The notes below the pieces were generated by a model, which made no database searches, was not told where the DNA came from, and was given only the letters and a program-made list of their open reading frames with translations. Positions 4,894 to 26,259 of a stretch of 29,586 nt of DNA are shown piece after piece. The stretch is from NCBI GenBank assembly GCA_016932965.1, contig JAFGBW010000300.1, positions 1 to 29,586 of the forward strand, read 5' to 3'. Source of the stretch: Candidatus Auribacterota bacterium. Its GTDB lineage: Bacteria; Auribacterota; JAFGBW01. Numbering within the stretch: the stretch's first letter is position 1; every line of letters starts with the position of its first letter. A program made the translations under genes and the position numbers.

Positions 4894-4901
4894 AATGAAA
4901 G

Positions 4902-4951: not shown

Positions 4952-4975
4952 CACAACCCATTTTCATGTGACTGT

Positions 4976-7468: not shown

Positions 7469-7495
7469 ATGAAACACCATCCGGAGAGGAGGATC

Positions 7496-8245: not shown

Positions 8246-8248
8246 CTG

Positions 8249-10030
8249 ATGAAACGGAAAAAACTGATCTGGCACCTGTATCCTTCTTATCTGTTCATCA
8301 TCCTGCTTTCCCTCAGTATGGTGACGGGCTATGCGTTATCGGCTTTCAAACACTCTTTTCTTCGTTCTACGTCCGGTTCTTTGAAAGACAAAGCGATTCT
8401 TCTGAAACAAATCATCCAGCCTTTCCTGGAGTCTCCAGTCAGAATGGATGAAATAGACGCCTTATGCAAACAAACCGGTAAAAACATCTCCACCCGGATC
8501 ACCGTGATTCTTCCGGACGGAATGGTGGCAGGAGATTCGGAAAAAAATCCGAAGGAAATGGAAAATCATCTGGACCGGCCCGAAATCCGGGAATCCCTGC
8601 AAAAAGGAACCGGTCAAAGCATTCGTTTCAGCAACACGCTCAAGAAAAATATGATGTATGTGGCGTGGATGGCAAAAACCGACTCAAAAATAATGGGTTT
8701 CATCCGTATGTCACTCCCCCTGACTGAACTGGATGAAGTCTATACCCGGATCATGTTCCGGATCCTTTTGACCGGTTTTCTGATCTCTCTTTGTGCCGGG
8801 GGGATCAGTTTCCTGATTTCACGAAAAATCAGTCAATCTCTGGAAAGACTGAAAGAAGGAGCCGAACGGTTTGCCTCCGGTGATCTGCATCAGAAAATTC
8901 AGCTTTCTGACTCGATAGAAATGTCTAAAGTGGCTGAAGCCATGAACCAGATGGCTCTTGAATTAGAGGCGAAAATCCGGACAATCCGTCTGCAGCAGAA
9001 TGAGCTGGATGCCATTTTTTTCAGCATGACGGAAAGTGTTTTGGCTCTGGACAATGAAGAAAAAGTCCTGAACCTGAATCAGACGGCGTCGAAATTATTC
9101 CATATCCCTCTGGACAGCGCCAGGGGACGACCGGTTCATGAAATAATCCGGAATGCGGATATGGAACGTTTTATAAAAAAAGCCTTTGCCGGAACCGATC
9201 CTGTTGAAACGGAAATCGTTTTCAGAGAAGGAGAGGAATGTTCGCTTCAGGCCCGATCATCCCTGTTAAAAAACGCGGATGGTATCAATATCGGCATTCT
9301 GATCGTGATGAATGACATCACCCGCCTGAAAAAACTGGAAACCATCCGACAGGATTTTGTGGCGAACGTTTCCCATGAGCTGAGAACGCCGGTTACCTCC
9401 ATCAAAGGATTTATCGAAACATTAAAAAACGGAGCGATGGATGACGCGAAAGAAAGGGATCGTTTTCTGGATATCATCATGAAACAAACCGACCGTTTGA
9501 ATGCCATCATTGAGGATCTCTTAAGTCTTTCCCGGATCGAACAGGAATCCCAAAAGGGGGCCATTATTTTAGAACAAGGTGATCTAAATAAGGTGCTGGA
9601 TGCTGCCATACGGAATTGCGAAAAAAAAGCAGAAGACAAAAACATCCGGATTATCCAGAATGAAAAAAAGGGCATTGTTTTAAAGATGAACCCCTCTCTT
9701 CTGGAACAGGCCTTTACCAATTTGATTGACAATGCAGTCAAATACAGTGATCCGGGAAAAGAAATTCAAATCCAGGCTGTCCCGGAGGAAAAAGAAGTCC
9801 GGATTTCTGTCAGGGACTGGGGATGCGGAATTTCCAGGGAACATCTTTCCAGAATATTCGAGCGTTTTTACAGGGTGGATAAAGCCAGAAGCCGGAAAAT
9901 GGGAGGCACCGGACTCGGGCTGTCTATCACCAAACATATTGTTCAGGCTCACGGAGGAGGCATCACGGTGGAAAGCACCGAGGGGAAAGGCAGCACTTTT
10001 ACAGTACGATTACCATTAAAAAAGAACTGA
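8249..10030 (+). CDS. phoR: PhoR-type membrane sensor histidine kinase
   Basis: A 593-residue kinase. TM1 is about 13-33, followed by an extracytoplasmic sensor region about 34-165 and TM2 about 168-190. A HAMP segment (about 191-245) and a PAS domain (about 250-360) come next. HisKA has phosphorylated His376 (FVANVSHELRTPVTS), and HATPase_c has N-box NLIDNAVKYS (491-500), G1 DWGCGI (523-528), F-box FERFYRV and G2 GGTGLGLSI (552-560). The large periplasmic domain plus PAS matches the longer PhoR/PhoR-ResE type rather than the short E. coli PhoR. It phosphorylates the PhoB-like partner under phosphate limitation, restrained by Pst/PhoU. It starts 3 bp after phoB. Confidence 0.92.
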   Translation: MKRKKLIWHLYPSYLFIILLSLSMVTGYALSAFKHSFLRSTSGSLKDKAILLKQIIQPFLESPVRMDEIDALCKQTGKNISTRITVILPDGMVAGDSEKNPKEMENHLDRPEIRESLQKGTGQSIRFSNTLKKNMMYVAWMAKTDSKIMGFIRMSLPLTELDEVYTRIMFRILLTGFLISLCAGGISFLISRKISQSLERLKEGAERFASGDLHQKIQLSDSIEMSKVAEAMNQMALELEAKIRTIRLQQNELDAIFFSMTESVLALDNEEKVLNLNQTASKLFHIPLDSARGRPVHEIIRNADMERFIKKAFAGTDPVETEIVFREGEECSLQARSSLLKNADGINIGILIVMNDITRLKKLETIRQDFVANVSHELRTPVTSIKGFIETLKNGAMDDAKERDRFLDIIMKQTDRLNAIIEDLLSLSRIEQESQKGAIILEQGDLNKVLDAAIRNCEKKAEDKNIRIIQNEKKGIVLKMNPSLLEQAFTNLIDNAVKYSDPGKEIQIQAVPEEKEVRISVRDWGCGISREHLSRIFERFYRVDKARSRKMGGTGLGLSITKHIVQAHGGGITVESTEGKGSTFTVRLPLKKN

Positions 10031-10078
10031 CAGACGGGGCAAATTCTCTTAAAACATGGCGGGAAGGAATCTCGATTT

Positions 10079-11065
10079 ATGCCAAAGAAACCAAAAACAT
10101 ACTGGGTCGGTTTTGATCTTGGCGGCACCAAAATGTCTGCTTATGTCTTCAACAATTCTTTTCATATTCTGGGCAAGGTGAAAGTCAAAACACCTGCCAG
10201 GCAAGGATTCAAAGCGTGTCTGGAGAAAATCAAAGCCGTTATCCTTGAAGCCCTGAATCAGGCTGGAGTCATTCCCGCCACTCTTTCCGGAATAGGAATC
10301 GGTTATGCCGGTACTGTCAACACCGAAAAAGGACGAATACTATCCTCGCCGAACATCGGATGGACCCAAGTCCCTCTGATAAAAGAATTACGAAAAAGTT
10401 TCAAGTGTCCGATCCTGTTATTGAATGATGTCGATGCCGGGGTTTACGGTGAGTATCTTTTCGGCGCAGGGAGAAAAAGCCGATGCCTTGCCGGCATTTT
10501 TATCGGAACAGGCATCGGGGGCGGATGTGTCTATGAAGGAAAAATCATTCAGGGCATGAACAGTTCCTGTTTCGAGATCGGACACATGCAGATGATGCCT
10601 CACGGGCCTTTGTGCGGCTGCGGTAAAAGAGGGTGCCTCGAAGCCATGGCAAGCCGTCTTGCCGTATCCGCGGCAGCCGCGATATCGGTGTATCGCGGGC
10701 AGTCGCCTGCGCTCCACAAAGCGGCAGGAATGGATTTATCCGCGATCAAAAGCGGCGAATTGGCTGCCTCAGTGAAATCCAAAGACAAAGTCGTCCTGCA
10801 AATACTTAAGGAATCCGCCGGATGGATCGGAATGGCCGCGGCGAATCTCGTCAATCTGATCCTGCCTGATAGAATCATTCTCGGAGGAGGCATGGCGGAG
10901 GCGATGCCGGAACTTTTCTGCCGTGAAGTCTTTTATGCCGCCAGAGAGAGGGTCATGCCCGTATTCCGGGATCAGTTTAAAGTGGTTTGCGCGAAACTAG
11001 GGGATGATGCGACTGCCATGGGTGCTGCCGCATGGGTAAAAGAAAAAACGGGTTCTCTGAAATAA
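10079..11065 (+). CDS. ROK-family sugar kinase (glucokinase-like)
   Basis: A 328-residue ROK kinase. It has the phosphate-binding loop FDLGGTKM (12-19), catalytic Asp117 in LLNDVDAG, the sugar-binding EIGHM (166-170) and the ROK zinc motif CGCGKRGCLE (179-188) with its three cysteines. Family members phosphorylate glucose or related hexoses in the cytoplasm, mostly with ATP. Some, notably the actinobacterial polyphosphate glucokinases, use polyphosphate. Its place between phoR (48 bp upstream) and ppx-ppk (18 bp downstream) makes polyphosphate a plausible phosphoryl donor, but nothing in the sequence that I can read settles the donor. A GGGAAGGA sequence lies a little upstream of the ATG. Confidence 0.87.
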   Translation: MPKKPKTYWVGFDLGGTKMSAYVFNNSFHILGKVKVKTPARQGFKACLEKIKAVILEALNQAGVIPATLSGIGIGYAGTVNTEKGRILSSPNIGWTQVPLIKELRKSFKCPILLLNDVDAGVYGEYLFGAGRKSRCLAGIFIGTGIGGGCVYEGKIIQGMNSSCFEIGHMQMMPHGPLCGCGKRGCLEAMASRLAVSAAAAISVYRGQSPALHKAAGMDLSAIKSGELAASVKSKDKVVLQILKESAGWIGMAAANLVNLILPDRIILGGGMAEAMPELFCREVFYAARERVMPVFRDQFKVVCAKLGDDATAMGAAAWVKEKTGSLK

Positions 11066-11083
11066 TCAAATGGAAATGCCATC

Positions 11084-12682
11084 ATGAAAAACAATCCATC
11101 TGAAGCATTCTCGGGCGGCAAACAAACGCTGTCATCCGAAAACATGACGGTAGCGGTCATTGACATCGGTTCCACGGCGATACGGATGGAAGTGGCCCAG
11201 ATCAATCAGCAGGGAAAGATCACTGTGCTGGAATCCCTCAAACAGACGGTCTCTCTCGGAAAAGACAGCTTTACGAAAAGTATCATTGAAAAAAAAACAA
11301 TCGAAGAATGTGTCAAGGCGCTGAAAATTTTCAGGAATGTGATCGACGCTTACAAGATTGAGTTGAACCGCATCCATGCTTTTGCCACAAGCGCTGTCTG
11401 GGAGGCATACAACAGGAAAACTTTTCTGGAAAGAATTTATATCGCCACGGGCATCCGGGTGAAAGCAATGGATGAAACGGAGGCCAACCGCCTGTTTTAT
11501 TTCAGCATTCAGCCGGCTCTGAAAAACGAAAAATCCCTTTCCTTAGGCCATGCGCTTTTTATGGAAGTTGGCGGCGGGACCACTCAATTGATTTATCTCA
11601 TAAAAGGGAAACCGGTCTTTTCCCGCGCATACCGTTTCGGTTCATTCAGAATTCGTGAAATTCTGGAATATCTAAAGGCTCCGGACACGCGTTTTCGTTC
11701 CCTCATCGAAAACCAGATCACCCGTATCACGGAGGACATCCTGAGCAGAACAGGCGTCAGGGGTGAAACCACCCTTGTCCTGATGGGAGGAGATGCGAGG
11801 TTTGCCGCTGCGCAGCTGGCTGCCGGCAAAAAAAACAGTCATTTTGTCAGACTGTCCCTCCCCAGACTCGAAAAATTGACTGAAATGATCCTTTCTGAAA
11901 GCGTGGACCAGCTGGTAAAAAAATTTCATCTGGCCTATTCCGACGCCGAAATACTCGGACCTACTCTTTTTACATACGTCCGGATTGCCAGGACGCTTAA
12001 AATCAAGAAAATCGGGGTGATCGAAACCACGATCAGGGACGGGGTATTATGGAAAATCGAAGCAAAAAAAAACTGGATGGAAAAATTCAGAGAGGAGATC
12101 CTATCGTCGGTAAAAAATCTGGGAAAAAAATATGATACGGATTTCAAACATACGGAATACACAGCCCGGATCTGCGTGCGGATATTCAGCCTTCTCGCAA
12201 ATGAACATGGTCTCGGAAAACATCATGAACTGATTCTCACCATAGCGGCTCTTCTTCATGACATCGGAATGTTTGTCAGCAACAGCAGCCATCATAAGCA
12301 TTCCATGTATCTTATTTTAAATAGTGATTTGTTCGGTCTCGATACCACGGACATTCAACTCATTGCCTTGATCGCCCGTTATCACAGAAAAGCCCTTCCC
12401 GACATCAAACACGAAGAATACGCCAAGCTGAATTATGAAAATCAGATCATCGTATCGAAACTGGCTTCTTTATTGCGTATTGCCGATGCCCTTGACTGCA
12501 GTCACAACCAGCGACTGTCCCGGCTCGGAATCGATTTGGAAAACAATCAGCTGATCATCACGACCGACAGAACCGATGATATCAGTCTGGAAGAATTCAC
12601 CCTGAAGAAAAAGGCCAACCTGTTTGAACAGGTTTATGGAATGAGTGTTCTCCTCCGGAAAGGCAAAGCGTCGCAGGTATGA
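11084..12682 (+). CDS. ppx: Ppx/GppA family exopolyphosphatase with C-terminal HD domain
   Basis: A 532-residue protein of the Ppx/GppA family, which removes terminal phosphate from polyphosphate or converts pppGpp to ppGpp. The ASKHA ATPase-like N-terminal half shows VAVIDIGSTAIRM (23-35), FATSAVWEA (100-108) and EVGGGTTQL (161-169, the usual DIGGGSTE position). The C-terminal part is an HD-like domain with LLHDIGMF (391-398) and a later RIADALD (465-471). The first 20 residues are not conserved and translation could start at the ATG at 11144. The stop overlaps the ppk start by ATGA, and this coupling with ppk favours the exopolyphosphatase role over GppA. Confidence 0.9.
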   Translation: MKNNPSEAFSGGKQTLSSENMTVAVIDIGSTAIRMEVAQINQQGKITVLESLKQTVSLGKDSFTKSIIEKKTIEECVKALKIFRNVIDAYKIELNRIHAFATSAVWEAYNRKTFLERIYIATGIRVKAMDETEANRLFYFSIQPALKNEKSLSLGHALFMEVGGGTTQLIYLIKGKPVFSRAYRFGSFRIREILEYLKAPDTRFRSLIENQITRITEDILSRTGVRGETTLVLMGGDARFAAAQLAAGKKNSHFVRLSLPRLEKLTEMILSESVDQLVKKFHLAYSDAEILGPTLFTYVRIARTLKIKKIGVIETTIRDGVLWKIEAKKNWMEKFREEILSSVKNLGKKYDTDFKHTEYTARICVRIFSLLANEHGLGKHHELILTIAALLHDIGMFVSNSSHHKHSMYLILNSDLFGLDTTDIQLIALIARYHRKALPDIKHEEYAKLNYENQIIVSKLASLLRIADALDCSHNQRLSRLGIDLENNQLIITTDRTDDISLEEFTLKKKANLFEQVYGMSVLLRKGKASQV

Positions 12683-14796
12683 AACAAAAAAAATCGAAAT
12701 TTCCTGAATTCATCAACCGGGAATTGAGCTGGATTGAATTCAACCAAAGGGTGCTTGATGAAGCCTTTGATATATCCGTGCCGCTATCTGAACGATTGAA
12801 TTTTCTCTGTATCACCTGTTCCAACCTGGATGAATTCATCATGGTGAGAGTCGGAGGACTGTGGATGCTGATGAGTGAAAAAAACAAGATTCCGGATGCT
12901 TCCGGCTATCCCCCTTCCGTCTTATACGAGGCTGTAACCGGGCGTATTCGTCAAATGATCGCTTCCCAGTATCATTGTTTTCTCGATCAAATTGAACCGG
13001 AACTCCGGCGGAACGGGATCAAAAGAATCGCCCCCCAGGACTGGACGGAGGAACAGCACCAGTTTTTACGGATCTATTTTGAAAATGATATTTATCCGGC
13101 GCTGACCCCCGTCCGCATCGGACAAAAGGAGGTGTTTCCTTTATTGTCTAACCTGGAACTGCACCTCGCAATCCGGCTCAAACCTCCACGTAAATCCAGG
13201 ATTCCCAGGTATGCCGTTCTTCCGCTTGGAAGAATGATGGACCGGATCATTCGATTGCCTTCAAACGCAGGCTGCCGCTTTGTCCTTTTGGAAGATTTGC
13301 TCAAGTATTTCCTGGCGCGTTTTTTTGAAGGAGAGGAAATCATGGAAAGCGCTTTGTTCCGGATCACCCGTAACGCGGACTTGGCCGTCCATGAGGATAA
13401 ATCGGATGATCTTCTGGAGAAAATGACGGAAATCCTGGATGCCAGAAAACACAGTGAATGCATCCGGCTGGAAGTGGAATCTTCCAGCTCTCCGCTTCTG
13501 CTTTCCTTTTTAAAAAAATCACTGAAAATCAAAACCTCTGTTATCTACCGCATACCAGGTCCCCTGTATCTGGCGGATTTTCAATCACTGATACAGCCCG
13601 GAGAGCATGAATCTCTTCATTATGAACCCTGGCCGCCCCAGATTTCAGCGGAATTCGAATCGAACACCTCTGTATTTGATTTGATTAAAAAACAAAACCG
13701 GCTGTTTCTGCATCCTTATGAGAGTTTTGAACCTGTTCTGAGGCTGATTGCCGAGGCTGCCGCTGATCCCAATGTGCTTACCATCAAACAGATTCTCTAT
13801 CGTACCAGCAGAAACAGCCCTGTTGTAGCGGCTCTTCAGCAGGCGGCTGAGGCGGGGAAGAATGTCACCGTAATCGTGGAATTAAAAGCGCGGTTTGACG
13901 AAGCCCGCAATATCGCCTGGGCCAAAAAACTGGAAAAAGCCGGGGCCCAGGTTATTTACGGTGTGAAAGGCCTCAAGGTCCATGCCAAGGCGTGCCTGAT
14001 TGTCCGCAGAGAACCAAAGGGGATTGTCCGCTACATGCATTTTGGAACCGGAAACTACAATGAAATCACGGCCAAAGTTTACAGTGATGTCAGTTTCATG
14101 ACCTGTGCGGAGGATTTTGGTTACGACCTGAGCATCTTGTTCAACATGCTGACCGGATATTCGCAGCCGGGAAACTTTCTGAAACTGGCTGCCGCTCCGT
14201 TTAAGTTACGGAAAAAAATCCTGGAATTAATCGAAACAGAGTCTCAGAGAAAGCGTGAAGGAAAAAACGCTATGATCATGATCAAAATCAATTCCCTTGT
14301 TGACACTGAAATCATCCGCGCCCTTTACAGGGCTTCTATAGCCGGGGTCAAAATCCTTTTAAATGTGCGCGGCGTCTGCTGTCTTCGGCCCGGGATTAAA
14401 CACTTAAGTGAAAACATCACGGTTGTGAGCATCGTGGACCGGTTTCTGGAACACAGCCGCATTTTTTATTTTTACCAGAACGGACATGAAAAACTGTATC
14501 TTTCCAGCGCGGACTGGATGCCCCGTAATTTTGACCGGAGGGTTGAACTCCTCATCCCGGTGGATGATCCGGATTCCCGAAAAAAACTCATGGCGGTTCT
14601 GGAGGACTATTTCCAGGATACGGAAAAAGCCAAATACCTGCAGCCTGACGGAACATACGCCTTATGCAGTCTGAAAGGGGCGACACGGAACCGCAGCCAG
14701 GAAAAAATTTACCGCCGGATCTGTCATCACGTGCATAAATCCAGGATCATCCCAAAAACCGTCCTGGAACCCCATCTCCCTTTGGATAATCTGTAA
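12679..14796 (+). CDS. ppk: Polyphosphate kinase 1
   Basis: A full-length 705-residue Ppk1, which reversibly builds polyphosphate from ATP. It begins with the family motif NRELSWIEFNQRVLDEA (13-29). It carries the two phospholipase-D-like catalytic histidines, His435 (KVHAKACLI) and His592 (LEHSRIFYF), at the same residue numbers as in the E. coli enzyme. RYMHFGTGNYN (451-461) and YLSSADWMPRN (607-617) complete the active site. It is the last gene of the phosphate block and is translationally coupled to ppx by a 4-bp overlap, so synthesis and breakdown enzymes are made together under apparent Pho control. Confidence 0.97.
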   Translation: MKQKKSKFPEFINRELSWIEFNQRVLDEAFDISVPLSERLNFLCITCSNLDEFIMVRVGGLWMLMSEKNKIPDASGYPPSVLYEAVTGRIRQMIASQYHCFLDQIEPELRRNGIKRIAPQDWTEEQHQFLRIYFENDIYPALTPVRIGQKEVFPLLSNLELHLAIRLKPPRKSRIPRYAVLPLGRMMDRIIRLPSNAGCRFVLLEDLLKYFLARFFEGEEIMESALFRITRNADLAVHEDKSDDLLEKMTEILDARKHSECIRLEVESSSSPLLLSFLKKSLKIKTSVIYRIPGPLYLADFQSLIQPGEHESLHYEPWPPQISAEFESNTSVFDLIKKQNRLFLHPYESFEPVLRLIAEAAADPNVLTIKQILYRTSRNSPVVAALQQAAEAGKNVTVIVELKARFDEARNIAWAKKLEKAGAQVIYGVKGLKVHAKACLIVRREPKGIVRYMHFGTGNYNEITAKVYSDVSFMTCAEDFGYDLSILFNMLTGYSQPGNFLKLAAAPFKLRKKILELIETESQRKREGKNAMIMIKINSLVDTEIIRALYRASIAGVKILLNVRGVCCLRPGIKHLSENITVVSIVDRFLEHSRIFYFYQNGHEKLYLSSADWMPRNFDRRVELLIPVDDPDSRKKLMAVLEDYFQDTEKAKYLQPDGTYALCSLKGATRNRSQEKIYRRICHHVHKSRIIPKTVLEPHLPLDNL

Positions 14797-14903
14797 TCGA
14801 TTTCCGCTCTTGTTCGGAATCTGCCTCTTTCAATCCGTGATCAATCTACAAGGAATCGATCGGCCTGGAACAAAACCTTATTAAACCCCTTTTTTATACA
14901 AAT

Positions 14904-14948
14904 ATTAATGGATCCTTAATCCGTCCCTAACACAGGATTGAGTAAATA
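14904..14948 (+). promoter_or_regulatory. Pho-box array and -10 upstream of the olsBA-like pair
   Basis: Three 7-mers at exact 11-bp spacing, ATTAATG (14904), CTTAATC (14915) and CCTAACA (14926), each have TAA at the same offset as in the pst and phoU arrays. Ten bases after the last unit comes TAAATA (14943-14948), a reasonable -10, which matches the usual Pho-promoter geometry where the box replaces the -35. The rest of the 177-bp gap after ppk holds nothing else that I recognise. Confidence 0.7.
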
Positions 14949-14973
14949 TCAGTAAAAAAGAAAGGGACCATGT

Positions 14974-15855
14974 ATGATTCTAGAAAACGAACACTCAATC
15001 TTTTCCGTAATCAAATCCGGAAGAAACATGATTCAGGGCTTTTTAATCAATTGGCCGCAAGTGCTGAGACAGAAAAAAATAAGTCAGTACAGACCCCATG
15101 TCTCAATCGTGCTCGAACGTCCGAATTATATCATTAAAACTGCCGAGAACAGCGCTGAATTAGAAGAAATTTTTGAGCTCAGGCATTCCATCTTCTATGA
15201 AGAAATGCTTGGCAAACATAAATTTAATCATGTTGATGTGGATGCTTTTGACATGTTTTTTGATCATCTGCTGATCCTCGATAAAAAAACAAAAAAAATC
15301 GTCGGAACGTACCGTCTCAATTCCTCCCTTTTCAGTGAAGAATTTTACTCTGAAATGGAATTTGAAATTCATGGCATTAAAAAACTTCCCGGAAGAAAGC
15401 TGGAACTGGGACGGGCGTGCGTTCATAAGAATTTTCGCAACGGAATCGTGTTTTCTCTCCTCTGGAAGGGAATCTGGGAATACATCGCTCAGACCTTCAC
15501 TCGCTATGTATTCGGCTGCTCGAGTATTTCTTCCATTAATCACCAGACGGCCGCATTAGTCTACCTGCATCTAAAACGCCATCATCTCGCAGGAGCTGAA
15601 TTCAGAATTTATCCCAGGGAAGAATTCAGAATTAAACATTTCAATGATCACTTCCATTTTGCCAGAGCTCTGATTTCCCGAATACCTCTTGATGTCGAAC
15701 AATACATCCCTCCTTTATTGCAATTGTATTTGAAACACGGAGCGAAAATATGCGGAGAACCTGCGTTTGATCAAAAAATGAGATGCATTGATTTTTTTAC
15801 GCTGATTGACATAAACGCAGTAGATCAAAAAATGTCTCGTCTGTTATCCAGATGA
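14974..15855 (+). CDS. OlsB-like GNAT N-acyltransferase (lyso-ornithine lipid synthesis)
   Basis: A 293-residue GNAT-fold protein of the Acetyltransf_5 / OlsB / hemolysin-like group. Characteristic segments are the acyl-carrier/CoA loop LELGRACVHKNFRNG (143-157) and the C-terminal HGAKICGEPAFDQKMRCIDF region (255-274), which parallels the GA-CG-PA-D-DF pattern of OlsB. OlsB transfers a 3-hydroxyacyl chain from ACP to the alpha-amino group of ornithine; relatives use other amino acids. The ATG at 14974 is preceded by AAAGGGA. It overlaps the next gene, an OlsA-like acyltransferase, by 4 bp. The pair plus the Pho-box promoter strongly suggests phosphorus-free membrane lipid synthesis. The N-terminal 45 residues look family-specific, and the amino-acid substrate is not proven. 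Confidence 0.78.
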   Translation: MILENEHSIFSVIKSGRNMIQGFLINWPQVLRQKKISQYRPHVSIVLERPNYIIKTAENSAELEEIFELRHSIFYEEMLGKHKFNHVDVDAFDMFFDHLLILDKKTKKIVGTYRLNSSLFSEEFYSEMEFEIHGIKKLPGRKLELGRACVHKNFRNGIVFSLLWKGIWEYIAQTFTRYVFGCSSISSINHQTAALVYLHLKRHHLAGAEFRIYPREEFRIKHFNDHFHFARALISRIPLDVEQYIPPLLQLYLKHGAKICGEPAFDQKMRCIDFFTLIDINAVDQKMSRLLSR

Positions 15856-16658
15856 AAACGCAGGTCAAAAGCGTTTTAATGGCTTGTGCCATTGTTTTTT
15901 TCATGATCACGGAGGCATTCATTGCATTTGCATTATTGTTTAATCCGGATAAAATCAAATCAACTCAAATCAGGATTGTTTCCTTTTATTCAAAAATCGC
16001 ATTGAAAATTCTGCGGATCCGACTCCGGATAACACATGACGCCGCTCCCTTTCAGGAAAATCATTCCTCCGGTGTTCTGATTATTGCCAATCATTTATCC
16101 TACCTGGATGTTCTCATGCTCGCATCCGTTTATCCCCTGGTCTTTGTCACTTCTGTTGATTTAAAGCATGACTTGTTTCTCGGTCCCTTAAGCCTCATTG
16201 GGGGATCCTTGTTCGTTGACAGAAAAAAAGGACTTGGATTAAAGAAAAGCATCAATGAAACCGCCCGTCTGCTGGAAACCGGTTACCGGATTGTGATATT
16301 TCCTGAAGCCACCTCCACTAACGGAAAAGTGATCCTGCCGTTTAAATCAGCCCTGATGAAGGCCGCTGAAATTGCGGAAGTCCCATTGATTCCGGTTTGC
16401 ATCAGTTATACCGGTATTCAATTAAAAAACCAGGTGATGATTGACACAGAACCCGTGTGTTATTACGGAAATGACAGTTTTTTCCCGCATTTATACAGGA
16501 TCTTATCCTTTGATTCTATCAGCGCTGAAATTCACTTCTTTCAAAAAACGTATTTTTTTTCCGGGGACAGAAGGAATACCGCTGAATTGTGCCGCAACAT
16601 GATTGCGGAAAGATATTTCGATCGGAAAAACAACCCTTTTCTCTACAGCCTGTCATGA
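15852..16658 (+). CDS. OlsA/PlsC-like O-acyltransferase
   Basis: A 268-residue lysophospholipid-acyltransferase-fold protein with an N-terminal membrane helix (about 8-30). The catalytic H-x4-D is in NHLSYLD (His81, Asp86), followed by the FVDRKKG block (121-127), FPEATSTNG (150-158, the EGT-type substrate motif) and the VPLIPVCI block (177-184). In the OlsBA pathway it adds the second acyl chain, from acyl-ACP, to the hydroxyl of lyso-ornithine lipid at the inner membrane; PlsC itself acylates lysophosphatidate. Overlap with the OlsB-like gene by ATGA favours the OlsA role. It runs towards the giant exporter gene, with only 52 bp between their stop codons. Confidence 0.8.
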   Translation: MKTQVKSVLMACAIVFFMITEAFIAFALLFNPDKIKSTQIRIVSFYSKIALKILRIRLRITHDAAPFQENHSSGVLIIANHLSYLDVLMLASVYPLVFVTSVDLKHDLFLGPLSLIGGSLFVDRKKGLGLKKSINETARLLETGYRIVIFPEATSTNGKVILPFKSALMKAAEIAEVPLIPVCISYTGIQLKNQVMIDTEPVCYYGNDSFFPHLYRILSFDSISAEIHFFQKTYFFSGDRRNTAELCRNMIAERYFDRKNNPFLYSLS

Positions 16659-16710: not shown

Positions 16711-18090
16711 TCAGGCACTCCTCTGAAGAGGTCTTGAATCGTTTACTGAAATACGAGAACCCGGACTTGTTCCGGTAACATGGTCAATGGCTGCTCCCAG
16801 ACGTCCCAGGCTTGTCACCGTTGAAACATATTCCATTTCCAGCGCCATCCATTCCTGCTCGGCTTTTAATAGATCCAATATGCTTTTCTGACCACTTTGA
16901 TAGGCTGCCAGGCCCTGTTCATATCTTTTCATGGCGGTGGGAATCGCATTCTCAAGTGACCGGATATGGGATTCTGCAGCTTTCCAGGACTCAGCGAGAG
17001 CTTCCGCTTCCGCCTTGAGTTCCGTCTCAAGTATATTTGATTCCTCTTTTGCACGGGCAAGTCTTGCTTCTGTCTTCTTCTTTTCGAAACTTCGTGGAGA
17101 AAACCCGAACAGATCATCCACATTGAAAGATAAATTCACGCCGACTGTGAACCCCTCCGGCATCATGTATGGATCCCCGCCTGAAAGAGAATAGACAGCG
17201 GTTGAATTTGGATCTCCCTGGACAAAACCCCGGTAGGAAGCAGTCAAATCCAGAGAAGGAAGAAGCTGATTCCTGATCTGTGATTTTTCCCGTTCGATTT
17301 TTTCCAGAATGCTCTGCAGATAAAGAAGATCCGGATTAAAGCGCCTTGCCAGACGAATGATTTCCTTTGTAGCCGGAGGAGGAGAAAGGACGGGCTGATA
17401 ATGATCTCCCACGGTTATTTCTTCTCCCCTGATGCGGGTCAGGGCGGCAATTTTCTTTGCCGTCGACCGGATCAGTGCCTGGTTTGCGTTGATTTTCCTG
17501 TCCACTTCGCTGCATTTCAGACGGGCAGTCAGCGTGTCGAATTCCGAACCGAAGTCATTTTCCGTTTTTCTTTTTTCCGTCTCGGTAATCATTTGGCAGA
17601 CCGCTTTATCCATCTGCAGCACCTTCTTCATCTGTTCATACTGATAGAGGTCCCAGAATAGATTGCGTATTTTGTTGATCTGATCCAAAAGCTGTTTTTC
17701 GGACATCCTGGAATGTAAAACAACATCGCTTCGACTTTGTTCTATCTGAAACTTCACGGGATCATGATTAAAAGCGCCGTTGAGAAAAGGCTGTCTGACA
17801 GTCACTCCCATCCCGGTTGTCCTGGTCAGGGTCGTGGATGAAACAACCCCTGTGACAGACCCGCCTCCGGGAAGATGCTCTTCCACTTCTCCTCTCAACT
17901 GCAATTCCGGAGCAGCCGCACCCTCAGGGGATACCGTCAACAGCGGATTGGTAGCCGCCGATATTTTCGGATGATACCCCGCCCTGGACTGATCAACCGT
18001 TATGGAATCCTCCTCATGTTGGGCGCTGATGATCCTGCACATGGGACTGTTGGCGAGATACTGGTCCACCACGCTTTTCTCCGTGACCTC
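16711..18090 (-). other. TolC-like outer-membrane factor domain (residues 2724-3182)
   Basis: After the AxA site the chain reads like the mature start of an OMF: VVDQYLANSPMCRIISAQ, then SRAGYHPKISA. Long heptad-rich helices follow (about 2850-2950 and 3060-3150), split by a short beta segment with GVNLSFNVDDLF (3040-3051). PFLNG at 2824-2828 is the usual R-QPLFNG-type element. The two-fold layout of strand and helix blocks fits one TolC protomer, about 460 residues, which would trimerise into a channel-tunnel. Confidence 0.85.
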
Positions 18091-21000
18091 GGCAGAGGCC
18101 CTTGACGGAACAAGGACAACCAGGATGAAAATAAACGGAATAATCAATGTATAAAGAATTTTTAATGGTAATCTGAATAAAGCACCTCCTGCTGCATGAG
18201 GAATCTCACTTTTCATGCCGCTGGATAGATTTTTCCTGGATTCATGGGATCGAACCCGTACAGCATTTGTCTTTTCTTCTCCGGAAGGTGTGACCCCTGG
18301 CGATAGCCCTCCGATGTTAGGACTGATCAGTGTGTCCTTTGTTTTCAAGTTACTCTGATCTTCATGAAGCTCGTCAGGACTTGGCTGGAACTTTCCCTGG
18401 TCTGACATGAGAAAATACACTTCTGTCGGTGTATTTTCCAAAAAAAATCCCTGTTCCTGCACATCAATCCGCAGATCAACCGCATCCGATTCCTCATCAG
18501 CCGACGCGCTTGTAATTTTTCCTTCATGCAGGATTCCGTTTATTTTTATCCTGACAGGGGGATACGCATCTCCCTGCTTCGATTTATATCGGGAGATCTC
18601 CTTCCAGAACTCCCCGGATACCACTGTGTTGACTGAAATTCGGGCCGGATTGGCAAGGGATAGATATCCCTTGCCATCCCCCACACCCTTTGACCCGACC
18701 AAACTACCGTTATAAACGGATATGTTTGTGATGACCCATCCTTTTTTTGCTTCAATCATATGAAACAGGGGAATGGATCTGTTCGAAGCGACAATTTCCG
18801 CAGCCCCTTTTGCAGTTTCATATTTTGTCCGGGCATCAATTGCCTGAGGACTTTTTTCTCCGTAAGCTTTGACGGCCTTTTCATAAAGCATTTTGTAAAC
18901 CCTGGCTGATCTGGAGTGGATGTTGTATTCCATACCCGCCTGATAATCATGAACGCAAACCTTTGCAAGAGATTCAACGGGGGAAAAAGCTTCATACGCT
19001 TCTTTGGGAATACCTGACACAACTCCTGAAACAGGAGGAATCCATTCGATTTTTTCAGGATAATAAGTGAATCCGGTTGTTTTTTTTAGTGAATATCCGC
19101 TCAGATCTTCATGGGAATTTTCATCGGATTCATGAACCTTGACCTGCACCACCGGCGCATCTCCCGGAGTCATGCCTTCTGAGGGAATAAGACAGGACAC
19201 CCTATATTGACCCGGTTTACCTTCCAGACCCTGAATTTTTGCTTTTACTTTCAGAGGATGGCCTCCGTTTACCGTTATTTCCATCATCGGTGTTTGTTCA
19301 GACCAGAAAAACAGAGAATAGATATTCGCTGTCATAACTTCGAATTCAAGATTGATTTCCCCGGGTAAAACCAGATAACCTAATGCCGAAGATGCGCTGA
19401 AATTATCCCCGTTGCCAGGTGTATTCACCGTATCGGCATAAACCGGCTTTCGAACGTACACTCCGTCATACGGAGCCTTGATCACTCCGGAAGCAGGTCC
19501 CTTCATCTGAATTCCGGCGGCCCCGCGTTGCCGGGACTGATTATTCTGCAGTTCCAGTTCCAGTTCAGTTAATTCAGCTTTTGTTCGCGTGCCTCTGGTT
19601 TCATCAAATGCCCTGATCTTACTATCAAGACCCTTTCCCTGAGCATCTAATTTATTGAAATGCAGTTGTTGTCCGTATCCTGAAACATCATATCTGACAA
19701 GCACTTGTCCCTTTCTGACGGGTGTCTGGTCCGGAAGCACCGATGTCACAGTGCCGGCAAATTCCGGTATAAGAGGAATACTGAATTCCTGCGCCCTGGC
19801 TGAGTATGCGGTGAGGGTTGTTTTTGACGAGGATGGTTCCCCCTTGGATGTTCGAGGCGTGTTCAGTTCCCGGGCCCATCGATCGCTGGTCGGGGTGTGG
19901 ATCACAACGTGGATTTTCCGCCCTGAATGATCGTCATCTGGAGGGCTCTGGTTGTTACAGCCCTGTAGAGCGCTTATCCCCAATAACGAAACAAGCATAA
20001 CAGATCTGACTAATGAATAGTTTTTTCGTTTGGATTTAGATTTATCCGGTCCTGTTTGAAGGACATCCGGGAGAACAGGCTGAGGGGTAGCAGGATCCCA
20101 TTCTCCCGGATTGAATTTTTCTGGATCGTGAGTCCCTGATTCGGGAACTTGCGGACTCATGATTCCTGACGGAACAGCACTGGCCAAACTTGAAGAAGAT
20201 TCAATATCCCGTAAAAGTGTCCTTCTTAAGGAAGCATTGGTTATTTTTTGGTTCTGTTTCCTGAGATGTTCCGCTTTCTTGTGAAATGAAGGCCATTTAT
20301 AAAGAAATACAAATTTTGGGAGATTTGCATCCAGATGATATCCGGCCTGTTCCAAATAGCGGGTGATATGATCATAATCAGCCAGATTGCCTGTTTTAGG
20401 GATTCTGACATGAACGGGACGGCCTTTGCTATCGTGATAGATATCATCAACCCATTGTTGATACGTGCTCCGAATGATTTCATCTGAAACCTGATTCAGT
20501 TTTCCGGCCAGTGTGTTTTTTCCCAGTTGTCTGATGTAAGTCTTGATCCCGTCAAAATCACTAAATGGCATCATGCAGATGTAATCAATGAACATATCAG
20601 ACAGCGATGACTTATTGATATTTCCCGACATGAAATAATCTTCATCAGAAAATATCATGATAAAAATTTCATACATCAATTTATATTCAATCGTATTGGA
20701 CCGGGAAAGAAAACCGATGAAATCATGCTGCTCGTTTCTGGTCATGTAATGAAGCATGTCATGAGTCACCCGGAACAAAATATAAATCCGAAGCAGATCT
20801 TCAGGGACATCCCTGCCCGGGAACAGAGTGTTGGGAATTCGGTCATACAATTGAGTGATCCTTTCGAGGATCTCTTTTCCATTCGGGTCGCTTTGATTCG
20901 TTTCCTCCGCTGATTTTATCTGGGACATCTCTTGATCTCCAGCCCTGTCCGGAGGAGGGGGGACATGCTGGTCATGAGCGACATCAACGGGGGGCTGCTG

Positions 21001-24000
21001 CACGGCAGCATCGATCCGGCGGTTTTTCTGATAATGATTCAGCAGCAGATACCTGAAATTCATCCTGGCCATCATCAGCCTGGCTTTTTTCACTTTCATT
21101 TTATCGCCGTTCGCGATGACATCCAGGCAGGCTTTAAGAAATTTTTCACGGGGTTTATCATCCGGGCAGATCATATTTTTCTGTAATTCACCGAGCCTCA
21201 TCATCAATAAATCGGTTGCCGTACTGTCGATATCATCCTTTTCCGATTCAATTTCAGCTATTTCAAAAGGAGTCCTTCCCGGCCAGTTTTCATAAAGCTG
21301 TCCGATATAACCATGAATAAAATCATCCGACATCAGTTCATCGATCATCCTGTCAAATACGTGTCTTTTTAAAAAATATTGCGCATCAGGATCGTTGAAA
21401 TTCATATTATAGTATGGATTATCCTGCATCAGAGCATCTGAGCCTGACGCGCATAGCAACTCGTTCAAGTCTTCAAGAAAAAAGCTCAAATCCGTTTCCG
21501 GTACATCTTCATCAGAACCGGATAGGGCGGTGGTTGTCCCATGCTCCCCCGGATTGATATTTTGTGACATGGAATCGTCAGCCCCCTGAATATCCTTCTC
21601 ATCCGGCTTGCCAGAACCGGCCTGATTTGATCCCGGGTCCGTGTTGTCATTGAAAACCCTGCTGATTCTGTCTATTACCGTTCCCGAATCCGTGACATGA
21701 TCAATAAATTCATCCAGTGACGAAGTTCCGGATTCTTTACAGGCTGTGCAGATAATTTCGTCGACCTGTATCTGCTTCTCGATATGATGATAGTCAATCA
21801 ATTCCGCGTTGCTGTATGAATAAACATGGTCCGGTTCAAGACTCGGACGGGAGTGATGATCTATGACAATCAATGAAACCTGATGAGCCTTCTGCCATTC
21901 TTTTAGATACTCGCATACCCTGGCTTTCATCGGACCTGGAATCCTTGGGACAGGTTCATCGAGAATCAGAAAAGGGGTTTTTCTTCTGGACTCCTTCATC
22001 AAAATCAGAACAAGGAAAAGTCTGCGGCGCTGTCCGGAAGAAAAATTCATAAAACTACCGGACATTTTCTGTTCCAATTCCGCATAGGATAATTCCGGCA
22101 GGATTTTCAAAGCTTCCCGGATAAAACTTTCTCTCACCGACCTGATTGTCTGAAATAAAAAATCTTTCGTTTCTTCAGAAGGCATGCTTCCGGTCAGGGG
22201 AATCCCCTGAGCTTCGAGAGCAAGTTCATCGAGCGTGGCCTCAATCTTGCTTTTTACTGAATAATAACGAATTTGATTCCTCAGACTATCCAGCTTGATA
22301 TGGGAAGGATCCGCCCCGATCCATCTCTCCTCCCCATTCGTCGATCTTAATTTCAATAAAATGCGGCCTCCGTTATGAGGTCTTAAAAAGGCCAGCATCC
22401 TTCCGGTCTGGGTCTTTCCCGCTCCGGAAAAAGCCGCCAGCATGAGCCTTTTTCCCTTTTTGATAGTCAGGGATTGTTTTTTTAAAAGTCTTTTCGGGTT
22501 GTCCTCCGGAGTATCGAGGCTCATCTCATCCATACGGATTTCCTGGATCGTCCATCCTTTTCCAAGAAGATCCTCACTTCCCTGGACTTCTCTTTCCCTC
22601 CAGGTTCTTTCCCATCTGTCCGCCTGATCATTCCGGGCGTAATCAAGAATTTTTCTCAGTTTATCAACGTTATAGACCGCCTCGGAGATATGTTTCACCG
22701 GATTCATGGAGTTCAGAATGAACGCCAGGTAACCGGACAGAACCAGTCCGTACATGGTCACCCCGAAAAACATGCCTGCCAGGGGAATTCCGACTGCAAT
22801 TAAAATAAACAAACCGATCGTAAAAACAGCGTTTTTATTCTGGTATTCCCTGAATACCCGTTCAGTCTTCTCAGCGGGTTCGCCGGCATGAGATGATTCG
22901 CTGAAAAAATTCTCAATTTCTCTGATCCTGGACGAACGGTCGCAAGCCTCCTGATATTTTTTCTGTATTTCATCAATCCCGCTCCGGCTGAATCCCTGAT
23001 ACAGGATCCATATCCACGAAAAAACAAACAACGGAATAAAAACAGCCAGAAATACTGGCTTGATGCAAAGAAGTCCCAAGGAGATGGAAATCCCGCTTAA
23101 CCAAACCCTGATAAAAAACCATCGTCCATGCTCTCCAGGAGTGATTTTATTTACCGTGGGCAGATCAGCGGCATTGATTAAATATTTAGTGGCAATGGAT
23201 TTGGCCAGAGGAGCCAGTAATTTATCCACGACATGGGATATTTCGCCTTCGGTGGACTGCCTGAAAATTTCAGCCAGGATAACAAACGCCATGATAACAA
23301 GCCAGATCCCGGCCATTGAAAAAGGAACAATACTGAATAACGAAAGCAGATACGGCATGATCACCATGCAAGTTTGCACCAAAGTCAATAACAGGCTGAT
23401 TCGGTTTACTTTTTTCCTGGCTGCGATAAAACGAGCAGAGAAACCTGTTCCGTCTTTTTTGTTTTCAAACCGGCTCAGGTCTTTAAGAAGAGATGGATTG
23501 ATCAGAAGCCCGCCTGTCAAAACTCCGATCATGTTAAAAAATAGATTCCTCCTGGGCGGTAATCCTTCATCTCCCAGATGGATTTCTTTTTCAGGAGAAG
23601 GGGAGGACTCGGTTATCTGGAAATCATCCGGATCATGAATGACTTTCAGCATGACTTTGAATATTTCGCCGGCAACTACGTGTCTTTCAGTTCCTACGGC
23701 CTCTGATCTTAAAACAGATAACGCCATACGCATCACCTGGTTTTCCACAACGGCTGAAAACAGCAGTTTTTTAGAATGCTTCTGAACAATCTTTAAAATG
23801 AAATTCAAATCATGCACTTCAATTCCTGAAAACCCGGCCTTTGAATCCGCTCTCTCCATGAGGGACAAAAAATGCCGCAATCCTTCAGGAATTTCCTGCG
23901 GCGTGGAAACGCCGTCTGGCGGGAATGGGTCAGGATTGTCCTTCTGCGGAGTCCTTTCCGGAGGCTCTCTGCCTGCCCTTGTGGATTTATTTTTATAATA

Positions 24001-26259
24001 CCCCAGATGGTTCATCCATCTTTCAAAAATGGATGAAAAAGATTTCCGGAACAAACCCAGGACCAATAATGGAAAAACAATGAATATCATCTGGGGAATT
24101 TTCACCAGTGAAAATCCGGAGACGACCGATCCTCCGACTCCTGCGACCTTCATTTGGCTGTCATGTCCCTGTCCCGATGCTATGCTTTGCTGAACCGCAT
24201 CTTCCGAAAGACCCCGTGAGACTGCAGCCAGTCTGGCATACTCCAGCTTTACATCTTCCAAAAGATCCATTGGTAAAATACTTGCAGGGTCCTTTTCAGG
24301 ATTTTTTAATTCTGTCAGAAGATCATGATATTTCACCTGTTGTGGGGAAAGATTGTGCATGGTAAGCGGTCTGTACGCGAGATCCAGAATGCCAGCCCTT
24401 CGGCTTAAAATGGATATCGCAATGACCCTTTGAATTTCCGTTTCGGCAACGTCTTTCATTATCTTTTTTTCATCCGGGGATAAATGGGGCAGATGATTAA
24501 TTTCAGGGAGAAAGTCCAGAATTTCAGAAAGATCGGGGGAAGAAAAGAAGTATGCTTTCAAGACCGTCTTCTTCTGCGATGGTTCCCCGACATCCCTGAA
24601 AAGCCTGATCAATATGTCTCTGGAAGCGCTGCAGCCGGAAATTTCCCGCTGGACTTCAGATGGATTGGTTGTCAATAAACGAAGGATATTGGACACGGCA
24701 AAAGATTTTTCTTCAGCGTTGAAATCTGCCGAAGAATATATGATCAGAAGAACCGGAACATTATTTTTTACATGGTCCCTGGCCATCATCCTGATTTGCA
24801 TATCCGGGGAATGCAAAAGAGTATAGGCTGCCCCGACTTCCAGCAATCGTTTTGCCGTTTCTTTGGCGAGCGAAACGGAATTACCGGATAAGGCCGCGGG
24901 CAGGCCGTCAGCAGAAGGAACTGCAACCACGATGCTTTCCCGGGAAGAAGAAGTCTTGGTGTTTGTTTGATTTGACGCTTCCGATATCAATTCCTCATAA
25001 ATCTTTTCGACTTTTTGTCCGACAGCAGGCATAGAAGCCAGAATGGAGCGGTCCGGATAATGATGATTTTCAGCAGAAGCCAGAAGTATCCGGGCAAATT
25101 CAATCCCGCCCGGCTGACCTGAAAGACGGTCAATGATTTTTTCAATGGTTTCATCGGCTCCGAAATGCTGTTTTTGAACCTTATCCCGCAGCAGGGAGCA
25201 CAAAATTCGCACTTTGAGCTCTGTCTGAGCGGCATCTTTTATAAGAGCCGATCCATGCCTTCTGATGACGGTTTTCCCTTCTGCCAACTCAACGGGTATT
25301 GAATTTCCCCCGGCACTTTCATCAAACGATACGATAAGCTGAGCCAGTTCCTGATTGCTGTCAAAAGAAGATAAAAACAACTGCATGGCTTTTTCACGGA
25401 TCAGGGAACCGCTGTTTTCCGTTGAAATAACCGTATATAGTAAAATCATGCTTTCTGTTCTTATCTCCGGGGTCTTGAGATGAAGGCTTTTCAATTCCGT
25501 TGTGTCCGAAAGCAATTCCCCTTTGATTAAAAGAAGAACGGTCTGCATCAATGATTCATCCGGGTTGCCTCTCCTGAACTCCCTGGATAAATGGGCGAAA
25601 ACAGAGGCAAGATAATAAGGATCATGGTTTCCGCCAATGTTGTACCTCATCAACAGGGCGGCTTTTCTGGTTTCCAGGTCGATCCCGTTGTCCTCCACGA
25701 TTTTTTCCAAATGCGACGGTGAATCCTTTGACAGAATATTTAAAGAAGAAAGTCTTTCCGCAAAATCTCCGCTGTTTCTGACTTTATCCAGCAGATCCGC
25801 CCGGACAGAGGTTTCCGAATAACCGTCCGCTTTCATCACGTCGACCATCTGAGTATATGCCTGAACCCTGTCATTGAAAGTCCTGGCATAGACATCCGAG
25901 ATGCTGCCTGAAAGCACCATCATGAAGGATAAAGCCGCCACCAATGTTTTTCCCCAGTTGATCAACGGACTGAACAGCGATCTCCTCCGGGAAGTTCCTG
26001 AAAGCGGTTCAGGGTTCAAACCCCTCTCTCCTGCATGCAATCCTGAAGAAATGCCGTTCTTAGAAGGATCCTGGATGGAAGAATCCCCCCTTGATTGTTC
26101 AGGCAAAAAGGATTGGGGGGCAAGACAGGACCGAGACCGGTGATGCCCAGTGTCGGAAGCGATCGAGATGTCATTGAAGGCCATGATAAGAATCATGAAC
26201 ACAGCAATGAACCTGAGAGCTTTTCTTCTGCCGCGATGAGAATCGATATCATGGTTCAT
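16711..26259 (-). CDS. Giant fused exporter: ABC half-transporter + two HlyD-like adaptors + TolC-like outer-membrane factor
   Basis: One uninterrupted 3182-codon frame. In order: hydrophobic segment 15-30 and CLAPQSF (45-51); second hydrophobic segment 103-120; an all-helical region about 127-700; TM about 715-737; six-helix ABC membrane domain about 950-1190; ATPase about 1235-1490; unassigned linker about 1491-2080; lipobox-like segment ending at Cys2101; two tandem barrel-sandwich/hairpin adaptor modules about 2140-2340 and 2395-2620; signal-peptide-like segment 2696-2723 (ASA before Glu2724); TolC-like region 2724-3182. These are the three parts of a tripartite exporter, normally separate proteins. 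The start ATG has GGAG seven bases upstream, and the promoter carries a five-unit Pho-box array. Cargo is unknown. The OMF and ATPase calls are strong, the adaptors good, and the helical and linker parts are unrecognised. Confidence 0.85.
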   Translation of the reverse strand: MNHDIDSHRGRRKALRFIAVFMILIMAFNDISIASDTGHHRSRSCLAPQSFLPEQSRGDSSIQDPSKNGISSGLHAGERGLNPEPLSGTSRRRSLFSPLINWGKTLVAALSFMMVLSGSISDVYARTFNDRVQAYTQMVDVMKADGYSETSVRADLLDKVRNSGDFAERLSSLNILSKDSPSHLEKIVEDNGIDLETRKAALLMRYNIGGNHDPYYLASVFAHLSREFRRGNPDESLMQTVLLLIKGELLSDTTELKSLHLKTPEIRTESMILLYTVISTENSGSLIREKAMQLFLSSFDSNQELAQLIVSFDESAGGNSIPVELAEGKTVIRRHGSALIKDAAQTELKVRILCSLLRDKVQKQHFGADETIEKIIDRLSGQPGGIEFARILLASAENHHYPDRSILASMPAVGQKVEKIYEELISEASNQTNTKTSSSRESIVVAVPSADGLPAALSGNSVSLAKETAKRLLEVGAAYTLLHSPDMQIRMMARDHVKNNVPVLLIIYSSADFNAEEKSFAVSNILRLLTTNPSEVQREISGCSASRDILIRLFRDVGEPSQKKTVLKAYFFSSPDLSEILDFLPEINHLPHLSPDEKKIMKDVAETEIQRVIAISILSRRAGILDLAYRPLTMHNLSPQQVKYHDLLTELKNPEKDPASILPMDLLEDVKLEYARLAAVSRGLSEDAVQQSIASGQGHDSQMKVAGVGGSVVSGFSLVKIPQMIFIVFPLLVLGLFRKSFSSIFERWMNHLGYYKNKSTRAGREPPERTPQKDNPDPFPPDGVSTPQEIPEGLRHFLSLMERADSKAGFSGIEVHDLNFILKIVQKHSKKLLFSAVVENQVMRMALSVLRSEAVGTERHVVAGEIFKVMLKVIHDPDDFQITESSPSPEKEIHLGDEGLPPRRNLFFNMIGVLTGGLLINPSLLKDLSRFENKKDGTGFSARFIAARKKVNRISLLLTLVQTCMVIMPYLLSLFSIVPFSMAGIWLVIMAFVILAEIFRQSTEGEISHVVDKLLAPLAKSIATKYLINAADLPTVNKITPGEHGRWFFIRVWLSGISISLGLLCIKPVFLAVFIPLFVFSWIWILYQGFSRSGIDEIQKKYQEACDRSSRIREIENFFSESSHAGEPAEKTERVFREYQNKNAVFTIGLFILIAVGIPLAGMFFGVTMYGLVLSGYLAFILNSMNPVKHISEAVYNVDKLRKILDYARNDQADRWERTWREREVQGSEDLLGKGWTIQEIRMDEMSLDTPEDNPKRLLKKQSLTIKKGKRLMLAAFSGAGKTQTGRMLAFLRPHNGGRILLKLRSTNGEERWIGADPSHIKLDSLRNQIRYYSVKSKIEATLDELALEAQGIPLTGSMPSEETKDFLFQTIRSVRESFIREALKILPELSYAELEQKMSGSFMNFSSGQRRRLFLVLILMKESRRKTPFLILDEPVPRIPGPMKARVCEYLKEWQKAHQVSLIVIDHHSRPSLEPDHVYSYSNAELIDYHHIEKQIQVDEIICTACKESGTSSLDEFIDHVTDSGTVIDRISRVFNDNTDPGSNQAGSGKPDEKDIQGADDSMSQNINPGEHGTTTALSGSDEDVPETDLSFFLEDLNELLCASGSDALMQDNPYYNMNFNDPDAQYFLKRHVFDRMIDELMSDDFIHGYIGQLYENWPGRTPFEIAEIESEKDDIDSTATDLLMMRLGELQKNMICPDDKPREKFLKACLDVIANGDKMKVKKARLMMARMNFRYLLLNHYQKNRRIDAAVQQPPVDVAHDQHVPPPPDRAGDQEMSQIKSAEETNQSDPNGKEILERITQLYDRIPNTLFPGRDVPEDLLRIYILFRVTHDMLHYMTRNEQHDFIGFLSRSNTIEYKLMYEIFIMIFSDEDYFMSGNINKSSLSDMFIDYICMMPFSDFDGIKTYIRQLGKNTLAGKLNQVSDEIIRSTYQQWVDDIYHDSKGRPVHVRIPKTGNLADYDHITRYLEQAGYHLDANLPKFVFLYKWPSFHKKAEHLRKQNQKITNASLRRTLLRDIESSSSLASAVPSGIMSPQVPESGTHDPEKFNPGEWDPATPQPVLPDVLQTGPDKSKSKRKNYSLVRSVMLVSLLGISALQGCNNQSPPDDDHSGRKIHVVIHTPTSDRWARELNTPRTSKGEPSSSKTTLTAYSARAQEFSIPLIPEFAGTVTSVLPDQTPVRKGQVLVRYDVSGYGQQLHFNKLDAQGKGLDSKIRAFDETRGTRTKAELTELELELQNNQSRQRGAAGIQMKGPASGVIKAPYDGVYVRKPVYADTVNTPGNGDNFSASSALGYLVLPGEINLEFEVMTANIYSLFFWSEQTPMMEITVNGGHPLKVKAKIQGLEGKPGQYRVSCLIPSEGMTPGDAPVVQVKVHESDENSHEDLSGYSLKKTTGFTYYPEKIEWIPPVSGVVSGIPKEAYEAFSPVESLAKVCVHDYQAGMEYNIHSRSARVYKMLYEKAVKAYGEKSPQAIDARTKYETAKGAAEIVASNRSIPLFHMIEAKKGWVITNISVYNGSLVGSKGVGDGKGYLSLANPARISVNTVVSGEFWKEISRYKSKQGDAYPPVRIKINGILHEGKITSASADEESDAVDLRIDVQEQGFFLENTPTEVYFLMSDQGKFQPSPDELHEDQSNLKTKDTLISPNIGGLSPGVTPSGEEKTNAVRVRSHESRKNLSSGMKSEIPHAAGGALFRLPLKILYTLIIPFIFILVVLVPSRASAEVTEKSVVDQYLANSPMCRIISAQHEEDSITVDQSRAGYHPKISAATNPLLTVSPEGAAAPELQLRGEVEEHLPGGGSVTGVVSSTTLTRTTGMGVTVRQPFLNGAFNHDPVKFQIEQSRSDVVLHSRMSEKQLLDQINKIRNLFWDLYQYEQMKKVLQMDKAVCQMITETEKRKTENDFGSEFDTLTARLKCSEVDRKINANQALIRSTAKKIAALTRIRGEEITVGDHYQPVLSPPPATKEIIRLARRFNPDLLYLQSILEKIEREKSQIRNQLLPSLDLTASYRGFVQGDPNSTAVYSLSGGDPYMMPEGFTVGVNLSFNVDDLFGFSPRSFEKKKTEARLARAKEESNILETELKAEAEALAESWKAAESHIRSLENAIPTAMKRYEQGLAAYQSGQKSILDLLKAEQEWMALEMEYVSTVTSLGRLGAAIDHVTGTSPGSRISVNDSRPLQRSA
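18091..18174 (-). other. Internal signal-peptide-like segment (residues 2696-2723)
   Basis: Basic residues Arg2696 and Lys2700 precede about 18 hydrophobic residues and then PSRASA/E, a textbook signal peptidase I site, in the middle of the fused chain directly before the TolC-like part. No convincing internal ribosome-binding site plus start codon was found ahead of it. Confidence 0.7.
18370..19842 (-). other. Two tandem HlyD/RND-type periplasmic adaptor modules (residues about 2140-2630)
   Basis: The first module has a lipoyl-like half GTVTSVLPDQTPVRKGQVLV (2169-2188), a short helical hairpin (about 2200-2246), and the matching half VIKAPYDGVYVRKPVY (2259-2274). The second repeats this order: IPPVSGVVSGIP (2407-2418), hairpin about 2450-2492, then the half around GWVITNISVYNGSLVG (2507-2522) with SLANPARISVNTVV. 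Adaptors bridge inner-membrane pumps and TolC. Two copies on one chain could represent the dimeric unit of the hexameric adaptor ring. Confidence 0.72.
19957..20028 (-). other. Internal lipobox-like membrane segment (residues 2078-2101)
   Basis: Five basic residues in KSKSKRK (2073-2079) are followed by a hydrophobic run (about 2084-2098) and ALQGC, with Cys2101 placed as in a lipoprotein signal. A Ser/Pro/Asp-rich linker follows, as is usual after a lipidated cysteine. The minus-2 residue is Gln, so the lipobox is imperfect. It may instead be a simple membrane anchor leading into the periplasmic adaptors. Confidence 0.55.
20029..21789 (-). other. Unassigned linker region of the giant protein (residues about 1491-2077)
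   Basis: About 590 residues between the ATPase and the internal membrane anchor, so presumably cytoplasmic. It alternates charged low-complexity stretches (for example 1540-1590 and 1750-1795) with two helical blocks (about 1595-1750 and 1796-2020). These contain no motif that I recognise. The short string NPGE recurs at 1569-1572 and 2050-2053 (N-P-G-E in both). Confidence 0.4.
21790..23547 (-). other. ABC half-exporter domains (residues about 905-1490)
   Basis: Six predicted transmembrane helices lie at about 953-975, 977-999, 1047-1066, 1068-1090, 1143-1165 and 1167-1185. Then comes an ATPase with Walker A AFSGAGKT (1276-1283), signature FSSGQ (1406-1410), Walker B LILDEP (1431-1436) and switch His1468. 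The Q-loop glutamine position appears to be Val1335 (RYYSVKS), and the D-loop SALD is replaced by VPRI. Lysine, DE and histidine are kept, so ATP hydrolysis remains possible. Confidence 0.8.
24160..25881 (-). other. Helical N-terminal region of the giant protein (residues about 127-700)
   Basis: Nearly 575 residues of amphipathic helices with alternating Leu/Ile positions and frequent short loops, resembling an alpha-solenoid. It is flanked by hydrophobic segments at 103-120 and 715-737. No catalytic motif was recognised. Confidence 0.4.

Follow-up and report, generated by a model that had tools for sequence, protein, structure and literature searches.

A single 3182-codon reading frame of a Candidatus Auribacterota bacterium joins an ABC transporter part, two predicted adaptor modules and a TolC-family outer membrane factor

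Known tripartite exporters and the giant reading frame

The ABC transporter, adaptor and outer membrane factor (OMF) of tripartite exporters are normally made by three genes. Type I secretion systems and ABC tripartite pumps (HlyB-HlyD-TolC; MacA-MacB-TolC) share with the locus described here an ABC transporter, an adaptor and a TolC-family OMF. However, their parts are separate proteins, whereas here one ORF encodes all of them, including two adaptor modules, and about 1500 residues besides, and the ABC part resembles CydD/LssB-type half-exporters, not MacB. In FbcH, the cytochrome b/c1 polyprotein of Bradyrhizobium, an inner-membrane protein and an exported partner are made from one ORF with an internal signal peptide, and their cleavage is established. 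FbcH has two parts only, and for the protein described here we infer cleavage from its segments. Fused dimeric adaptors are also known, e.g., DSY0927 of Desulfitobacterium hafniense (PMC4446572). DSY0927 likewise carries two adaptor modules in one chain, but this chain includes neither an ABC transporter nor an OMF. No exporter with all three envelope parts in one reading frame was found in the literature searched, and to our knowledge none has been described. If made and used, the product would be such an exporter. The adaptor:OMF ratio, fixed at 2:1 by the fusion, could then be tested directly, as could the way in which bacteria export and cleave chains bearing several signal segments and the origin of giant fusions in uncultured phyla.

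The window, i.e., the whole stretch of 29,586 nucleotides that was analyzed, contains a single ORF of 3182 codons without interruption, from an ATG at 26259 to a stop at 16711 on the minus strand. A previous sequence-only reading had proposed an uninterrupted frame of this length, giving no strand, and the ATG-to-stop reading and codon usage agreed with it. As an out-of-frame reading of one third of the segment encountered 48 stops in about 1097 codons, 3182 open codons are not expected by chance. When codon usage was profiled in blocks of 60 codons and the six frames were compared, the true frame was the best in 49 of the 53 blocks (one tie). Codon usage equaled that of the other genes of the genome (0.131 versus 0.145 bits per codon), as did GC3 (0.473 versus 0.474), and the GC content was even along the ORF (0.43–0.49). 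The coding signal fell to approximately zero mainly at residues 1–120, 721–780, 1981–2160, and 2641–2700, which are mostly module joints. P, S, G, and D are abundant in the hydrophilic linkers, whose weak codon bias is what intergenic DNA turned coding by stop loss would be expected to show.

In 207 kb sampled from the genome, the second longest open frame reached 1246 codons; thus, a length of 3182 codons is unusual for this organism. Contig 100 of G000 (L114) was left out of this length comparison. About 10 kb of that contig reads as N, so that each of the six frames falsely appears open for about 3500 codons. Both the ORF and the parts that it encodes are real and unusual.

Modules of the encoded protein

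All features lie on the minus strand. The chain begins with a leader, consisting of a hydrophobic segment (residues 13–36) and the motif SCLAP (residues 44–48; 26116..26223), and hydropathy revealed a second signal-like segment at residues 99–124 (25888..25965). Residues 125–710 (24130..25887) gave no Pfam match, are probably periplasmic, and exhibited no detectable homology in profile comparison with the giant ABC proteins of two other genomes of the phylum, G007 and G021. A TM segment follows at residues 718–745 (24025..24108). The ABC transmembrane domain (residues 953–1183; 22711..23403) was assigned from hydropathy, which showed three helix pairs and two long cytoplasmic loops (about 44 and 50 residues) ahead of the nucleotide-binding domain (NBD), and from profile homology to the G007 and G021 proteins over residues 812–1490. 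The NBD (residues 1240–1475; 21835..22542) was identified with Pfam ABC_tran, over cut-off at residues 1259–1437, and with phmmer matches to PDB ABC ATPases. Six TM helices followed by an NBD correspond to the layout of an ABC half-exporter. NCBIfam models of CydD/LssB-like exporters and TolC were matched below cut-off. The NBD retains Walker A (SGAGKT), FSSGQ, LILDEP, and the H-loop histidine, and its Q-loop glutamine was not recognizable. Residues 1476–2080 (20020..21834) contain P/S/D-rich linkers without a Pfam family and are predicted to be cytoplasmic. As about 900 residues ahead of the ABC core and 600 behind it contain no recognized domain, the protein is more than an exporter.

The C-terminal part, residues 2724–3182 (16714..18090), is a TolC-family OMF, as Pfam OEP was matched twice over cut-off (88 bits) and the two repeats are preceded by a signal-like segment at residues 2682–2723. 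Its closest OMF relative showed 25% identity and is located in a MacAB-like operon, and an adaptor and OMF search of 98 genomes returned generic OMFs only, at 17–30% identity. Longer OMF ORFs of the phylum were also considered, and the three that were read (903–1106 aa) carried TPR or AMIN-like extensions and no ABC parts. A 1106-aa OMF on contig 61 of G000 (L050:910-4230, minus strand) has AMIN-like and TPR-like N-terminal parts and an AMIN-like C-terminal part and adjoins an adaptor gene.

The region between the ABC part and the OMF gave no Pfam or PDB sequence match. About 50 adaptors, the majority from the same phylum, were combined into a profile, which was used with shuffled, reversed, and tile controls. 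Module 1 (about residues 2110–2410; 19030..19932) scored 47–54 in hhalign over about residues 2160–2280, compared with a maximum of 22 in 60 shuffles, and elsewhere in the chain, beyond the adaptor region, tiles scored 19.1 or less. Module 2 (about residues 2411–2650; 18310..19029) gave a weak hhalign score of 25 against a shuffle maximum of 19, and its assignment was drawn mainly from a low-confidence structural model (mean pLDDT 45, hairpin 80–90). In a Foldseek search of this model against 350,542 PDB chains, all 31 matches at E ≤ 0.001 were adaptors of the MexA/AcrA/TMexC type or related to it, and adaptor or tripartite-pump entries filled each of the first 48 rows. A model of both modules (residues 2105–2690), built without relatives and having a mean pLDDT of 34, returned adaptor entries in its first 37 rows; this poor model was used only through the specificity of its matches. 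The adaptor (MFP) fold is defined by a split lipoyl/barrel-sandwich, a helical hairpin, and a beta-barrel, against which models with pLDDT values of 34 and 45 are of low confidence. As the TM-scores of the adaptor models were near 0.2 or lower, their global shape is wrong, and specificity is limited to the local elements and the order in which these occur. Taken at this level, the assignment of two adaptor modules is supported, with module 2 resting on structure-level evidence. The two adaptor modules and the TolC-like factor that had been claimed from the letters alone were thus recovered, and the proposed order of ABC part, adaptors, and OMF was borne out by Pfam, profile, and Foldseek evidence. 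An adaptor search of 44 genomes of the phylum returned only the query itself. MFP genes in 650-aa frames of G001 and G007 resembled tandem adaptors and were rejected as CusB-type adaptors with metal-binding-like extensions.

Signal-like segments and the proposed explanation

Signal-like segments at residues 99–124, 2080–2101, and 2682–2723 lie at module joints, as read from hydropathy and motifs. The segment at residues 2080–2101 (19957..20022) ends in a lipobox-like LQGC (C2101), read by eye. The segment at residues 2682–2723 (18091..18216) begins at an ATG, and its stretch 2691–2723 is the most hydrophobic of the chain, with basic residues on the N side and the ending SRASA↓EV. That the codon signal is approximately zero at joints bearing such segments is as expected for joined genes. 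Shine-Dalgarno sequences were looked for at 2088 and 2682, and neither position gave support for internal initiation; many genes of the window also have no clear Shine-Dalgarno sequence.

We favor, though by no means firmly, the reading as a fused exporter operon, with a product that is probably split into its parts. A phylum-specific giant ABC gene would have fused in frame with a tandem-adaptor gene and an OMF gene, with no stop left between them and with the signal segment of each retained. The most likely product would be a trans-envelope ABC exporter, in which the inner membrane would hold paired ABC half-transporters, the adaptor modules would assemble into a six-unit periplasmic ring, and OMF trimers would provide the outer-membrane duct. 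The primary product would probably not be used whole, so that one ORF would yield separate ABC, adaptor, and OMF proteins. The segment at 2080–2101, lying N-in after the cytoplasmic ABC tail, may either serve as an anchor for the adaptor or yield it as a free lipoprotein, while the OMF is probably freed through its own signal peptide at 2682–2723, either by internal initiation at ATG 2682 or by a linker cut before export. No substrate gene was recognized in the window.

A tentative wider reading, to which we give somewhat less than even credence, is an exporter polyprotein in which one ORF would supply all pump parts in a fixed ratio, and the chain would be either split by signal peptidases at its internal signals or covalently linked across both membranes. 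The ratio itself had been taken from the letters as 1:2:1, in conflict with the usual 2:6:3. With three chains, the adaptor:OMF ratio of 2:1 in fact gives 6:3, the usual and prevailing value in the field. The objection stood for the ABC half-count, which would be odd (3, not 2) only if the chain stayed whole.

It is rather unlikely that the polypeptide works uncut and spans both membranes, with the ABC part in the inner membrane, the adaptors in the periplasm, and the OMF in the outer membrane, so that three chains would give one OMF trimer and a six-unit ring. Such a chain would agree with the lack of a stop at any joint, with the fit of the 2:1 ratio to 6:3, with the signal-like segment that G007 and G021 also carry inside a long conserved chain, and with the absence of a good start codon for the adaptor near 2080. 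However, three chains would bring three ABC halves, residues 2682–2723 resemble a normal cleavable signal peptide beginning at an ATG, and the topology is difficult. If the ABC tail is cytoplasmic, the segment at 2080–2101 is N-in and places the adaptor in the periplasm. As the adaptor would then already be periplasmic, the strongly hydrophobic segment before the OMF could not, in an uncut chain, have a cytoplasmic N side, as a signal requires; if it stopped transfer instead, the OMF would remain inside, on the wrong side. Cleavage at C2101, or the use of 2080–2101 as an anchor, is free of this topology problem. Thus, of the earlier proposal of an exporter encoded as one polypeptide, the single ORF holding all parts stood, but a single working chain is doubtful, since the OMF signal-like segment follows a periplasmic adaptor.

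Relatives in the phylum, the shared leader and the window neighborhood

A profile of the ABC part matched 3 of the 44 genomes of the phylum, namely, the source genome, G007 (JAHDNF010000005.1, isolate R3-B46), and G021. The proteins of G007 and G021, 2239 and 2269 aa long, resemble the window protein in carrying a signal segment, TM segment, six-TM ABC domain, NBD, and tail in the same order; in full, their signal segment and N-terminal domain of about 500 aa are followed by an internal signal-like segment and a TM helix, and an extension then leads to the TM domain, the NBD, and a tail. Unlike the window protein, they have no adaptor or OMF, which were found neither in nor beside them, and they have another N-terminal domain and more degenerate NBD motifs. 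Homology of the region before the ABC core was assumed at first, but profile comparison restricted the homology to residues 812–1490 of the window protein. The N-terminal domains of the two relatives (L049:8224-14943, minus strand; L063:6078-12887, plus strand) carry the motif IEDAHC and have no Pfam match. Homologues of the same order, a search for which had been suggested with the sequence-only reading, were not found among the 43 other genomes of the phylum; the full fusion occurs in one assembly only, and the ABC core recurs alone in two others.

Walker A is preserved in the NBDs of both relatives, whereas the LSGGQ signature (NFSTDEK, DFPVNEK) and the H-loop (VIESE, IIDEQ) are lost. Together with the lack of a recognizable Q-loop glutamine in the window NBD, this suggests that the ABC part may not pump. 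It would then be a degenerate module with a different role, as scaffold or regulator, within a giant envelope protein specific to the phylum, and stop loss would have added an adaptor-OMF pair to this protein; the absence of adaptor and OMF from the relatives agrees with this. We regard this explanation as unlikely, as the window NBD retains Walker A, FSSGQ, LILDEP, and the H-loop histidine. An assembly or binning artefact, in which sequence errors joined neighboring genes, would fit a single MAG contig, the missing second genome with the fusion, and the weak coding signal at the joints, but it is highly improbable: an error would be required at each of several joints, yet all of the linkers, about 60 codons long, are open in a single frame, and the GC content is even over the ORF.

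The leader of the window protein (signal segment and SCLAP, residues 13–48) is common to at least six other proteins of the source genome, on contigs C37, C96, C140, C219, C236, and C238 of G000 (L131, L134, L139, L141, L143, and L144). The DNA pattern for [S/T/C]CLAP after a signal-like segment was matched 18 times, compared with 4 times for the reversed pattern. By reading, some of the leader proteins resemble cytoplasmic enzymes (PEP-synthase-like, histidine-kinase-like, and methyltransferase-like), and in the protein on contig C96, as in the giant ORF, the leader is directly followed by a second hydrophobic segment. From these motifs, it looks like a common leader rather than an exporter part. 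Beside the giant ORF, positions 1847–16658 of the window contain a complete phosphate cluster, comprising PhoU, a porin, a phosphate-binding protein, two permeases, an ATPase, a response regulator, and a histidine kinase, and continuing with a ROK kinase, Ppx/GppA, and polyphosphate kinase.
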